From assembly GCF_000786105.1 (NCBI RefSeq), contig NZ_JTEV01000028.1, positions 1 through 49,734 on the forward strand: a DNA stretch of 49,734 nt, given 5' to 3'. Below are positions 23,575 through 27,571 of this stretch, piece by piece. The position numbers and the translations under genes are program-made. The stretch comes from Bdellovibrio sp. ArHS. Lineage in GTDB: Bacteria; Bdellovibrionota; Bdellovibrionia; Bdellovibrionales; Bdellovibrionaceae. The notes under the pieces were generated by a model. That model saw nothing but the letters and a program-made list of their open reading frames with translations. It was not told the DNA's origin and did not search any database. The stretch's first letter is position 1, and each line of letters begins with the position of its first letter.

Positions 23575-25005
23575 TTAGGTTTTTAAAGGGAACGTGCAGA
23601 TAAACTCGCACCCTTTATCCGGCGCGCTCTTCACCATCACCGTCCCACCGTGGCTTTGCATAATATGCTTCACAATTGCCAAGCCTAAACCGGTTCCCCC
23701 GGCGTCTCGCGTACGTCCTTTGTCCACGCGGTAGAAGCGCTCAAAAAGACGATCCAGATGTTCTTGAGGGATACCAGGCCCGTCATCAATAACACGTAAA
23801 ACTACGGTTTCTTTGCCAGCACCTTCCCAGCGAATTTGCACTGTTTTGCCTGACGGAATGAATTTAATGGCGTTGGAAACAAGATTGCGCAGAACTTGTT
23901 CAACTTTATGGGCATCCGCCATAAACGGCGGCACTTCACCGATCACACGAATCGCAATATTCTTTTCCGCCGCCAAAACAGCCAGCTCTGCCAGAATCTG
24001 CTCGGAAATCTGCAAAGGATGGATCAACTCCAATTTTAGCGCGGCGTGGGACTCTAAGGTGCTAAGACTGAGAAGGTCGTTCACCAGATCCATCAGACGA
24101 TCGATGTTGCGAGACACGATATCAAGAAATTTACCTGCCTGTTGAATTTGCCCTGTGCGCACATCTTCTTTCAACGTATCGACATAACCTTTAATGGAAG
24201 TCAGCGGTGTGCGCAGTTCGTGAGAAGCATTCCCCACAAAGTCGATGCGGATCTGCTCGACTTTTTTAAGTTCGGTGATGTCATGAAAGATTCCCACGAC
24301 ACCATAGATGTTTTTGGTTTTTTCGTTGCGAATCGGATTCACCGAAACGGCAAAATAACGGGGCTGATTGTCCACCAAAGTGGGCAGCTTGACAGTGAAA
24401 CGCTGAACTTTCCCCTCTTGAATTGTCTTCGCAAAACCTTCCAACACATCGGACGAACGAATCGCATCTTTAAGCCGCAGAACCGAAGAATTCACCAGAC
24501 TCGGCGGAATAAACTGCGCCGCAAACTGAGAATTGAAATAAAGAATCTTTTCATCCAGACTGACGCTGACCAAGCCTTCTGCCACCGCACTCATGAAGGC
24601 CTGAGATTCCTCTTGCGCCTGAAGAAATTGAGCTTTGCGTTTTTTCATCTTGCGATGAATGTGGTTCAGCGCCACATCAAGCTCAGAAATATCGTCAACC
24701 TCATCGTCCAACAGATCATCTTCCTGAGGATCAACAAGGTCGCCGTAAGTGCGTTTGCTGGAAATTCTTAAAGCTTTCAGGATCATCCTATGAATCGGTC
24801 GCGCAAAGCGGTACGACGTCAGAGCCGCCACGAATAAACTGAACAGAAAGAAATTTAAAAGGGCTTCATTATAGACAAAGGGACGAACCCGATAACGAAT
24901 ATCAATGACCGAGATGACACCTACAAATAGAACATTGAAGGCCACCAGTTGAATAAAAAAGAATTTCCAATATACGCGCCAAGGGAATCTTACAAATCGC
25001 TTCAT
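23575..25005 (-). CDS. phoR: PhoR-type phosphate sensor histidine kinase
   Basis: A 476-residue membrane kinase. Two membrane segments (about 14-34 and 48-66) flank a very short external loop, as in E. coli PhoR. A cytoplasmic HAMP-like helix and PAS domain (about 125-245) follow. The H-box is ASHELRTPLTS, with the phosphorylated histidine at 262. The ATPase domain shows LRNLVSNAIKF (N-box), DDGPGIP (G1) and GTGLGLAIV (G2). Such kinases respond to phosphate status through PhoU and the Pst transporter. The ATG overlaps the phoB stop as ATGA. The assignment over other PAS kinases rests on the adjacent phoU and phoB. Confidence 0.9.
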   Translation of the reverse strand: MKRFVRFPWRVYWKFFFIQLVAFNVLFVGVISVIDIRYRVRPFVYNEALLNFFLFSLFVAALTSYRFARPIHRMILKALRISSKRTYGDLVDPQEDDLLDDEVDDISELDVALNHIHRKMKKRKAQFLQAQEESQAFMSAVAEGLVSVSLDEKILYFNSQFAAQFIPPSLVNSSVLRLKDAIRSSDVLEGFAKTIQEGKVQRFTVKLPTLVDNQPRYFAVSVNPIRNEKTKNIYGVVGIFHDITELKKVEQIRIDFVGNASHELRTPLTSIKGYVDTLKEDVRTGQIQQAGKFLDIVSRNIDRLMDLVNDLLSLSTLESHAALKLELIHPLQISEQILAELAVLAAEKNIAIRVIGEVPPFMADAHKVEQVLRNLVSNAIKFIPSGKTVQIRWEGAGKETVVLRVIDDGPGIPQEHLDRLFERFYRVDKGRTRDAGGTGLGLAIVKHIMQSHGGTVMVKSAPDKGCEFICTFPLKT

Positions 25006-25700
25006 GCGAAATCTACTTTAACCCTATAACCCACACCTCGGATAGTCTCAATTCGATCGCCCCACTCGCCTAACTTCTTGCGTAATCCAAAAACGTGGGT
25101 GTCGATAGTGCGTCCAACGACGTTGATGCCTTCGCCCTGAATATTCTCAATCAACTGTTCCCGGGTAAGAACCACACCCTGATTCTGTACCAAAGTCCCT
25201 AAAAGCTTGAATTCGGACGGAGTTAAATGAAGAGGCTCGCCATTATAGGAGATCTCATAAGTTTTAAAATTAATACGCAATCCAGACAACACGACGTCAT
25301 TTTGGTCTGAAGCAGGGGCCGCCGCCACTTGAGTTCTTCTTAAAAGGGCCTTCACCCGAGCCAAAAATACAGAAGGGTTAAAAGGCTTCGTCAGATAGTC
25401 ATCCGCGCCTTTTTCCAGTCCCGCCACAATATCCTGAGGTTCCGCTTTCGCCGTGACCATCAGAACTGAAGTTTGAGAATTTTGGCTTTTGATTTTTTCT
25501 ACGATTTCAACGCCGCTAAGCCCAGGCAGCATCCAGTCCAGAACATAGACGTGAAAGTTTTGGCGATTCATTTCGTTCAGTGCTTCTTCAGCCGACGAAC
25601 ATTCGGTGACGCGATAACCTTGTCTTAAAAGATGCAAGGCCATGAGCTCGCGGATTTCCTGCTCATCTTCCACCACTAGCACTTGAATCGAATTGTCAGC
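25002..25700 (-). CDS. phoB: PhoB-type response regulator
   Basis: A 232-residue OmpR/PhoB-family regulator. The receiver has the acidic pair in VVEDEQE, the phosphorylated aspartate at 56 (VLDWMLPG) and the lysine at 106 (TKPFNP). The C-terminal winged helix ends with RETIRGVGYRVKVDF-type wing residues (ETIRGVGYRV). The start is a judgement: a TTG at 25698-25700, overlapping the phoU stop and preceded by GGGGG, fits receiver length. A TTG at 25742 would add 14 residues. No ATG exists nearby. It would bind the Pho-box-like repeats ahead of phoU. Confidence 0.88.
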   Translation of the reverse strand, partial: ADNSIQVLVVEDEQEIRELMALHLLRQGYRVTECSSAEEALNEMNRQNFHVYVLDWMLPGLSGVEIVEKIKSQNSQTSVLMVTAKAEPQDIVAGLEKGADDYLTKPFNPSVFLARVKALLRRTQVAAAPASDQNDVVLSGLRINFKTYEISYNGEPLHLTPSEFKLLGTLVQNQGVVLTREQLIENIQGEGINVVGRTIDTHVFGLRKKLGEWGDRIETIRGVGYRVKVDFA

Positions 25701-26361
25701 CAAACTTGCCCCCGTGTCGCACGTCTTTACCTGTAAATGCAAAAATCACGTCTTCAGCGATGTTCGTTGCATGGTCGCCTAAACGCTCTAAATTTCTTGC
25801 GATTAAAATCAAATCCAAACCCGCCTCGACATCTTCTGAGTGGGCTTTCATATGAGCCAGGCAGTCTTTAAAAACTTTGTTCTTCAGATGATCGACTTCA
25901 TCATCCATCATCAAAATCTGCTTCGCTTGCTCAATGTCCCCGCGAACAAAGCTATCCAGTGAACCCTTGACCATGCGCCCGGCAATCTCGGACATTTTTT
26001 GAATGTCGCCCAATTGTGCCGGAATAGGTCTGCGGCCTAAATAATCTTTGCCCGTGTATGAAATGTTCACTGCCTGATCGCCCATTCTTTCAAGGTCGTT
26101 ATTAATTTTAATAACTGATAGAATCAGACGCAGATCCTTCGCTACCGGACCTTGCTTCGCTAAAAGCTGCATACAGGCATTATCGACCTTGACGTGATCT
26201 TCGTTGACGAGTTTTTCAATGGCGTGAACGCCGTCAAACATTGAAAGGTCTTTCGACAGCAAGGCTGCCGTCGCCTGGGCCAAAGATTTCTCCACATGAC
26301 CACCCATAAGAAGAATCATCTTTTTTAGGTCTTCAATAAGAGTATCAATCGCTCTTTCCAT
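25696..26361 (-). CDS. phoU: Phosphate signalling regulator PhoU
   Basis: A 221-residue, all-helical two-repeat protein. PhoU links the Pst transporter to PhoR and dampens the pho response. The conserved acidic/metal-binding helices are seen as KVDNACMQLLAKQGP with DLRLILSVIKINNDLERMGDQAVNI in the first repeat (split across about 70-110). The second repeat has DLILIARNLERLGDHATNIAED. I take the ATG at 26359-26361 (GGA box 8 bases upstream); a GTG at 26379 would add six residues. PhoU leads the phoU-phoB-phoR order, with PhoB starting inside its stop region. Confidence 0.92.
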   Translation of the reverse strand: MERAIDTLIEDLKKMILLMGGHVEKSLAQATAALLSKDLSMFDGVHAIEKLVNEDHVKVDNACMQLLAKQGPVAKDLRLILSVIKINNDLERMGDQAVNISYTGKDYLGRRPIPAQLGDIQKMSEIAGRMVKGSLDSFVRGDIEQAKQILMMDDEVDHLKNKVFKDCLAHMKAHSEDVEAGLDLILIARNLERLGDHATNIAEDVIFAFTGKDVRHGGKFG

Positions 26362-26419
26362 GGCATTCCAATCCAGCACTTGGCTTTGGTTATAGTTATT
26401 TACAAAATAAAAGCACCGC

Positions 26420-26459
26420 TTAACACGGCATCTCTTTGGATTCTAACAGAATCCTAACA
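26420..26459 (-). promoter_or_regulatory. Candidate Pho box (PhoB binding site) upstream of phoU
   Basis: Read on the minus strand, TGTTAG occurs at 26454-26459 and again at 26443-26448, exactly 11 bases apart. That is the spacing of the two direct-repeat units in the E. coli Pho box (consensus unit CTGTCAT). A third, TGTTAA at 26420-26425, sits 17 bases before a weak -10-like TAAATA. The middle copy lies in the loop of an inverted repeat GGATTC-TAACA-GAATCC (26438-26454), which could instead be a hairpin after the porin gene. Confidence 0.45.
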
Positions 26460-26462
26460 CAT

Positions 26463-27518
26463 CTAAAAGAGAACTTGCGCCGCCAACTCAACTTTGGAGC
26501 GATCCCGCACTCCTGGCGCATAGTTTTCAGCATAACGAGTGTGGTCGACCGCCAAGGCCGCCTTGATATCCTCGGTCACCTGATATCCTAAAGACACTAT
26601 GACGGTCTGCAAATCCTTGCCGTCCTCAGAGGCCAGCGCATCCAAGTAGTCATAACGAAGCAGAACCTCTGCCTTAGGCCCGGTACTGATGACGGTATAA
26701 AAGCTGGCACCACGACCGTCGACAGATTGGCCCAGAAAATCCGTGACGTCCACGCCTTCGGCCATTTTGTAATCACTCAAAGCATCCGCGGGATCTTTCG
26801 TCAGCAAAAGCTCCAGACCAGCCAACCAGCTTTCCTCTTTTTGATATTCCAGCAAAGCCTGGATACGTTCTTTCAAAGCCATGCTGCCAGAATATTTGTC
26901 GTAACTTCCTCGGACGTAATTAAATGAAACACTTAAAGGCGACCACAAGGTGAAGCGGGCAAATAAGGCCGCTTCTTTGTGAGAACCTTTTTCTTTTTCG
27001 TTAGCACCTTCCCCATTGGCAAGATTAAAAGCCCATTCGCCCCAATCCTGAGGAAGTTGCGACATGAAGGAAAATCCCAAGTCAGAATAATTCAGGTACT
27101 TCCATTTTTCTGTCGGCGCCCAGGCATCCGTCCCTAAAAAACGATAACCATACTGCTCATATTGCGCCTCTTGCCAGGTCTGCGGGATCAACCCGACGCG
27201 CAGGGCGTGCATTCCTGAAAATTCGCTCACTAAATCCAGATAAGCCTCACGAACACGCATTTCGAAACGCTCTTCCGAATTTACTTCCTGCTCAGAACCT
27301 TCCAAAGTCAAAACCAACAAATTGTCGTCTTTTAAAGGCGCTTCAAGATCCAAAAACAGGCTGGGAACATTGAAGGCGCTGTTACCGCGCTCGCCGGTAG
27401 GAAGCTGCCAAACCGAAGCGGTGACGTCGACCTCCCCTGAGATCTCTATGTCCGACAAGGCCTTTGCCTGCAAAGAGGCAAAAAGCAAAAATAATAAGGC
27501 TCCGCTGTATTTTTTCAT
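26463..27518 (-). CDS. Porin-like outer-membrane beta-barrel protein
   Basis: A 351-residue protein from the ATG at 27516-27518, with a signal peptide MKKYSGALLFLLFASLQAKA. The body has porin features: an N-terminal IEISGEVDVTASVWQ strand, then repeated strands with aromatic girdles (AWAPTEKWKYLNYSDLGF, VSFNYVRGSYD). It ends in phenylalanine after VELAAQVLF. The location before phoU-phoB-phoR suggests a phosphate-responsive channel of the OprP/O type, but I cannot confirm selectivity. The ribosome binding site AGAGG lies unusually close to the start. It diverges from ppx across 53 bases. Confidence 0.75.
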   Translation of the reverse strand: MKKYSGALLFLLFASLQAKALSDIEISGEVDVTASVWQLPTGERGNSAFNVPSLFLDLEAPLKDDNLLVLTLEGSEQEVNSEERFEMRVREAYLDLVSEFSGMHALRVGLIPQTWQEAQYEQYGYRFLGTDAWAPTEKWKYLNYSDLGFSFMSQLPQDWGEWAFNLANGEGANEKEKGSHKEAALFARFTLWSPLSVSFNYVRGSYDKYSGSMALKERIQALLEYQKEESWLAGLELLLTKDPADALSDYKMAEGVDVTDFLGQSVDGRGASFYTVISTGPKAEVLLRYDYLDALASEDGKDLQTVIVSLGYQVTEDIKAALAVDHTRYAENYAPGVRDRSKVELAAQVLF

Positions 27519-27540
27519 GCCTCTTATGCTGCCAGTTTTA

Positions 27541-27546
27541 TATACT
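27541..27546 (+). promoter_or_regulatory. Candidate -10 element for ppx
   Basis: TATACT matches the -10 consensus at 5 of 6 positions, but no good -35 is seen 17 bases upstream. Transcription would start near 27553, after the ATG codons at 27548 and just before that at 27557. This favours the GTG start at 27572. Confidence 0.3.
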
Positions 27547-27571
27547 AATGCCAAGGATGGAGAAGCTTACT

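Follow-up and report, generated by a model that had tools for sequence, protein, structure and literature searches.

The window analysed here, a 49,734-nucleotide stretch of the 3.54-Mb genome of Bdellovibrio sp. ArHS (G000 in our genome set), carries on its minus strand phoU, a PhoB-like regulator gene and a PhoR/PnpS-like kinase gene, in this order. A gap of 83 bp separates phoU from a porin-like gene ahead of it on the same strand (26463-27554), and further upstream are a ppx-like gene on the plus strand and genes for a histidine phosphatase and ppk on the minus strand. The phoU gene (25696-26379, minus) matches PF01895 and passes the curated cut-off of the TIGR02135 PhoU family (201.1 versus 130.25 bits), and comparison with relatives puts its probable conserved start codon at 26361, the ATG that begins MERA. 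The second gene of the operon (25002-25742, minus) encodes an OmpR-family response regulator whose best NCBIfam hit is TIGR02154 PhoB, at 207.5 bits and below the equivalog cut-off of 296.2, and the sensor kinase gene behind it (23575-25005, minus) scores 311.1 bits with PnpS and 273.7 bits with PhoR (cut-offs 400 and 334.2, respectively). At E 0.001 the product of the upstream gene matches nothing in Pfam or NCBIfam, and its predicted structure (pLDDT 80.9) features a general-porin fold for which Foldseek returns Omp-Pst1 as the nearest (E 6.1e-12, TM 0.69).

The gap (26380-26462), bounded by the stop codon of the porin-like gene (26463-26465) and by phoU, contains in minus-strand order two tandem units, TGTTAGGATTC (26449-26459) and TGTTAGAATCC (26438-26448), a hairpin with TGTTAA in its loop, and a TATAAC hexamer. 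Minus strand 26459 down to 26438 reads TGTTAGGATTCTGTTAGAATCC, and the elements that had caught the attention of the earlier note are found there directly: TGTTAG at 26459-26454 and, with a period of 11, again at 26448-26443, followed by TGTTAA at 26425-26420, 23 bases past the second copy. The tandem has the architecture of a Pho box, with two 7-bp cores and a 4-bp spacer, i.e. two 11-bp direct repeats, and its unit differs, as had been pointed out, from the enterobacterial one: the E. coli-type core CTGTCAT is absent from the phoU box, whose own core is TGTTAR in a consensus of about TGTTARGGTTT. The exact TGTTAG-N5-TGTTAG pattern occurs once in the window against 0.0074 copies expected from base composition on both strands, whereas with two mismatches allowed its 3 matches against 2.3 expected are unremarkable. 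Repetition of any 6-mer at a distance of 11 is seen in 4 of 599 window tiles of 83 bp, and at each of the other distances from 8 to 15 in 6 to 18 tiles. Taken by itself, the repeat is therefore only suggestive, and conservation has to decide.

The alignment of phoU upstream regions that the earlier note had proposed finds the 11-base repeat in every congeneric locus compared and in several other Bdellovibrionaceae. PhoU was detected in 54 of 59 relatives, and upstream sequence was compared for 30 loci, 23 congeneric and 7 from other genera. The exact 11-base period is present in 23/23 congeneric loci, 80-97 bases ahead of the PhoU match, with the first TGTTA retained in all 23, the second in 21 and (N)GTTA at the second position in all 23; these counts come from related and hence statistically dependent genomes, and the same applies to orthologous hits within the 23. 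Inspection by eye of the seven other-genus loci reveals a complete repeat in two (L024, L028), a partial one in three (L025, L029, L030) and no box in two (L026, L027). That the repeat is a chance match, a reading to which the ordinary frequency of the two-mismatch pattern lends itself, has negligible probability given how few exact copies are expected, and the 23/23 conservation rules it out. A second set comprised the best 80 PhoU loci from named genomes, with mononucleotide shuffles as background; the five closest PhoU relatives among them (81-88% identity) are four Bdellovibrio, including B. bacteriovorus strain kdesi, and one Bdellovibrionaceae bacterium. Of the 16 among these 80 loci with at least 59% PhoU identity, 12 have a box at p<0.01, and the number rises to 14 at p<=0.015, always in direct orientation; nine of the 16 were already in the first set, and five of the seven new ones pass p<0.01 (L243-L246 and L248). 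Of the remaining 64 of the best 80, 3 pass p<0.01.

The second copy of the repeat is also part of a perfect inverted repeat, GGATTC-TGTTA-GAATCC, with its TGTTA as the loop, and the earlier note had accordingly set hairpin and operator readings in competition. If the inverted repeat were the functional element, acting as a terminator, an attenuator or another RNA structure, the direct repeat would be incidental. The 6-bp stem of the window does fold better than most shuffles (z -2.57, with 4 of 200 as good), but among the 23 congeneric loci it is complete in 4, retains at least 5 pairs in 9 and falls to 3 pairs or fewer in 6, whereas both repeat cores are kept in 23/23; the inverted repeat is, moreover, not followed by a T tract, and a like tandem reappears at pstS and at PF07510 genes (see below). 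The decay of the stem alongside persistent repeat cores largely refutes this alternative, which we consider very improbable. Either loss of the repeat in relatives or conservation of the hairpin arms only had been named beforehand as the outcome that would count against an operator, and the relatives display the converse of both. A search for Rfam RNAs in 26300-26600 returned no match up to E 1.

The third copy, TGTTAA at 26425-26420, occupies the loop of a predicted terminator-like hairpin (26409-26436, minus) whose stem of up to 11 pairs is followed by T-rich sequence, and which is better conserved than the inverted repeat around the second copy. Its stem, T tract and position behind a gene are those of an intrinsic terminator, and it is the probable terminator of the upstream porin gene: 22 of the 23 congeneric loci have the end of this gene upstream of phoU, and the sole locus that lacks the gene (L018) is also the one with a disrupted right arm of the hairpin. 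Three stem pairs feature two-sided changes, a count reached by 60 of 500 shuffles, with the covariation score reached by 17 of 500 and slid versions reaching at most 4. The earlier note placed the third copy correctly but did not mention this hairpin, by which the copy is better explained, so that its role as a box is doubtful; by eye it also has no clear partner unit at 11 bases that would make it a full second operator. The loop core GTGTTA is nonetheless kept in 23/23 congeneric loci, a degree of conservation that termination would not call for, and this copy may have a further role.

Recurrence upstream of phosphate-regulon genes, notably pst, characterises a Pho box and is observed for the tandem. 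We sought pstS at 27 loci and found it at 26, consisting of 21 congeneric loci, 1 second congeneric copy and 4 other-genus loci. In all 26 pstS regions the best match to a matrix derived from phoU sites only lies on the reverse strand, within a conserved block and opposite to the E. coli-type direction; the chance expectation is 0.008-0.094 per region, calculated on a background that includes loci picked for carrying the pattern. The boxes read TGTTAGGTTTGTGTTAG in G028, TGTTAGGGAATTGTCAG in G024 and TGTTAGGGAATTGTTAG at the second PstS of G021, with a box at the second PstS of G011 as well, while in congeneric first copies of pstS the second unit is degenerate (e.g. TATTAT or TATTTAG). In G004 (locus L086), a search of the 1.5 kb upstream of pstC found no PstS, and it is pstC that is preceded by a box, TGTTAAGGTATTGTTAA. 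A scan of 500 bp upstream of pstC alone misses most pst boxes because pstS lies between. At one locus (L134:840-2372) a gene for a PAS-domain histidine kinase is divergent from pstS and shares the box region, and that pst box therefore points toward the kinase.

For genome-wide searches we used a sequence-only model, R1, built from 28 phoU and pst sites and run on 24 genomes, with its reversed counterpart, R2, as control; the high ranks of phoU and pst sites are circular, as these are the training sites. R1 gives 24 other hits of at least 13.1 bits, of which 23 were examined (G011:C1:3021611 was left out), several of them mutually orthologous. Promoter or intergenic placement, as for a Pho box, is found for 21 of these 23 (13.1-17.5 bits) as opposed to 3 of 20 control hits (20 of the top 21 for R2, 12.5-16.1 bits, with G011:C1:3534260 left out), the coding fraction by the same rule being 0.893. 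Relative to open reading frames of at least 140 aa within 350 bp, 13 of the 23 boxes are reverse, 4 direct, 2 both, 2 without such a gene and 2 inside one; at a length of at least 80 aa, 11 are reverse, 7 both, 3 direct and 2 inside. The bare pattern TGTTARN5TGTTAR is a weak discriminator, with 66 matches in the 24 genomes and 35 for the same pattern read backwards, and in G000 the one-mismatch pattern is not enriched (5 matches versus 10 for the control). The genome scan suggested in the earlier note succeeds with a model of the box, which recovers pstS, nuclease and other intergenic sites.

Several R1 hits lie ahead of genes whose products contain the GmrSD_C nuclease domain (PF07510), and many of these proteins have signal-peptide-like starts. 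The 24 genomes contain 46 listed PF07510 places, 45 with enough upstream sequence, mostly two per genome and hence not independent. For 34 of these 45 genes the box score exceeds the 95th percentile found for 46 window genes, and in each of the 34 the box is reverse, located 85-118 bases before the predicted start in 26; scores above 9 bits are reached by 29 of the 45 and by a single window gene out of 46, phoU itself. In the neighbour control, which covered 45 loci, 82 separate neighbour genes with no common upstream stretch include 4 above the pass mark of 6.1 bits and 3 above 9 bits (95th percentile 5.8), and another 29 neighbours share the upstream stretch of the nuclease gene (median 11.6); an earlier control with 111 genes in nuclease loci was poor (90th percentile 13.8, 95th 17.1). 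The 11 PF07510 genes below the mark include some whose products, one of them GmrSD-like, have no signal-like start, as judged by eye. In B. bacteriovorus the secreted nucleases Bd0934 and Bd3507, which we do not equate with the PF07510 genes, are described as acting in the bdelloplast (PMC7925074). The situation recalls Vibrio cholerae xds, an extracellular nuclease gene reported to be induced via PhoB (PMC6746945); the link in Bdellovibrio is a predicted one, and we equate neither the nuclease family nor the box.

Boxes were also observed at further genes. A direct box abuts the -35 of purF-like genes at five loci (G000:C37:3006 (L163), L122, L127, L150 and L152; Pfam assignment checked for L127), with a leader of roughly 230 nt that by eye ends in a GC-rich hairpin and a T run and is possibly an attenuator; four of the five loci gave no Rfam match at gathering score. 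At L133, L136 and L154 (from G001, G018 and G000), a terminator-like hairpin, seen by eye, comes no more than about 20 nt after a reverse box and precedes a gene whose product of about 275 aa looks secreted; that of L133 has no Pfam match. TGTTAA-N5-TGTTAG lies between divergent PotD-like and PotA-like genes at L091 (G000:C26:10207), L060, L109 and L110, the binding-protein and ATPase families having been checked in L091, where they score below the curated NCBIfam cut-offs. A box precedes an MFS transporter gene in four genomes (L158 by Pfam; L145, L159 and L161 by similar N-termini), and at L131 and L135 (G003 and G013) strong reverse boxes stand ahead of genes for small proteins that look secreted, are about 90 aa long and contain YSMNDC (no Pfam match for L135). 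Finally, at L037, L111 and L114 a further response regulator gene has TGTTAA-N5-TGTTAA in its upstream region, directed away from the gene, with the OmpR-type DNA-binding domain of this regulator checked in L037.

Overall, we propose, with a probability of about 0.85, that the 22-bp tandem at 26438-26459 is the operator of a Bdellovibrio-type PhoB, through which the latter would regulate its own operon, pstSCAB and nuclease genes. The notion of a lineage-specific Pho box put forward in the earlier note is supported by conservation at phoU (23/23), by recurrence at pstS (26/26) and PF07510 genes (34/45) and by the intergenic placement of other hits (21/23). The obvious candidate to bind the box is the operon's own response regulator (25002-25742). 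Among the 22 congeneric loci covering this part of phoB, 21 share an identical recognition helix, GRTIDTHVFGLRKKL, and L017 has I for V (L016 is truncated and outside the 22). E. coli PhoB has DRTVDVHIRRLRKAL at the same place (PDB 3t72 alignment), the two residues past HV/HI being RR in E. coli and FG here, a difference that might, conjecturally, account for TGTTA in place of TGTCA. The box could instead be the operator of another OmpR-family response regulator, or common to several: direct repeats are described as general in the OmpR/PhoB family (PMC4832192), TGTTAAAGCTATGTTAA stands upstream of the gene for a different OmpR-type regulator (L037), and MCP, MFS or polyamine-transporter-like genes follow some of the box hits. 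Boxes are nonetheless strongest, and recur most often, at phoU-phoB-phoR, pstS, pstC and the nuclease genes, phoU and pst being R1 training sites, and we regard regulation by a protein other than the operon's PhoB as quite improbable.

Box orientation is not fixed, as the pstS and nuclease boxes are opposite to the phoU box, and the spacing to the promoter was considered jointly with it. The TATAAC at 26389-26394 (minus), 48 nt past the 17-bp repeat, is a predicted and uncertain -10 of phoU: over the 23 loci, scoring of the -10 alone places it best at 48 nt, whereas with the -35 included 42 nt leads (1.6 versus 0.8), the phoU -35 being poor and the hairpin of the porin gene lying between box and -10. 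With -35 and -10 both scored, the predicted -10 lies 22 nt from the box edge at pstS, 32 nt in nuclease group 1 and 34 nt in nuclease group 2, all with reverse boxes, and 29 nt at purF and 42 nt at phoU with direct ones; with the -10 alone the distances become 22 (pstS), 32 (group 1), 12 with 34 second (group 2), 29 (purF) and 48 nt (phoU). In the five purF loci, the abutting -35 is a good one, TTGACC or near. A difference of about half a turn between the two orientations holds with phoU at 48 nt, but phoU does not fit at 42 nt; all -10 positions being predictions, this geometry is a lead. In Salmonella PhoP promoters, direct boxes are reported to act at 12 and 23 nt and reverse ones at 27, 37 and 48 nt from the -10 (PMC3335776), distances similar to those predicted here (reverse 22 and 32-34 nt, direct 29 and 42 or 48 nt) with the orientation labels swapped. 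The opposite orientation of the phoU box relative to the pstS and nuclease boxes, kept across genera, could alternatively reflect negative feedback, with PhoB repressing its own operon and reverse boxes activating pstS and nuclease genes. The phoU box, however, stands at some distance ahead of the predicted -10 (42 or 48 nt) and does not overlap it, both orientations activate in a phasing-dependent manner at Salmonella PhoP promoters (PMC3335776), and the direct box at purF stands ahead of a good -35, so that repression at phoU appears unlikely and autoactivation the more likely sign. More ambitiously, a single 11-bp tandem might serve in two orientations, with distances to the -10 about half a turn apart so that the regulator always reaches RNA polymerase from a suitable face, in a regulon centred on secreted nucleases that digest prey DNA; we put this forward tentatively, as a possibility on the unlikely side.

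In E. coli, PhoB controls phoBR and pst, and its box at pst is directed toward the gene; the PhoP box of Bacillus subtilis consists of TTAACA repeats that also point toward the gene. The Bdellovibrio tandem shares with the E. coli box its 11-bp period, the TGT-A core and the apparent connection to phoBR and pst, and differs from the TGTCAT core by T for C at the fourth base and by G or A at the end; unlike in E. coli, the boxes of pstS and of the nuclease genes face away from the gene, and phoB and phoR follow phoU, separately from pst. Read on the opposite strand, TGTTAA becomes TTAACA, and the gene-ward direction of these B. subtilis repeats is as at Bdellovibrio pstS, although B. subtilis belongs to another phylum and the Bdellovibrio phoU sites point the other way. 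The E. coli box, CTGTCAT-N4-CTGTCAT, is described as two direct 7-bp cores with an 11-bp period, within a Pho-box consensus that varies by species (PMC4415409). For Desulfovibrio vulgaris a PhoB box of (c/t)GT(n)AC with a 4-bp spacer is reported (PMC3333781), likewise a short repeated GT-n-A core with a short spacer at pst and phoU genes, whereas Bdellovibrio has R (A/G) in place of a conserved C past the A. The Salmonella PhoP box, with the half-site (T/G)GTTTA, resembles the present one in being used in both orientations, location and orientation acting jointly, but serves a magnesium rather than a phosphate regulon (PMC3335776). A literature search, covering mostly top-ranked results, found no Pho box for Bdellovibrio. 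In our assessment it is well supported, on comparative sequence grounds, that the box is a lineage-specific variant of a known operator, and in that sense ordinary.

In the mechanism that we envisage, the response regulator made from the operon's second gene would bind the two 11-bp direct repeats as a head-to-tail dimer. Phosphorylated when phosphate is short, this PhoB would act on phoU-phoB-phoR itself, on pstSCAB and on genes for nucleases that would release phosphate from DNA, including that of the prey. A defined box would provide a predicted phosphate regulon for a predatory bacterium, would link nucleases to phosphate sensing, and bears on whether a predator inside its prey runs a phosphate-starvation programme. 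The two-orientation geometry makes a separate point on how OmpR/PhoB regulators may contact RNA polymerase, and it is this geometry together with the nuclease link that lifts an otherwise ordinary operator variant. If true, a nuclease-centred regulon would tie phosphate hunger to predation.
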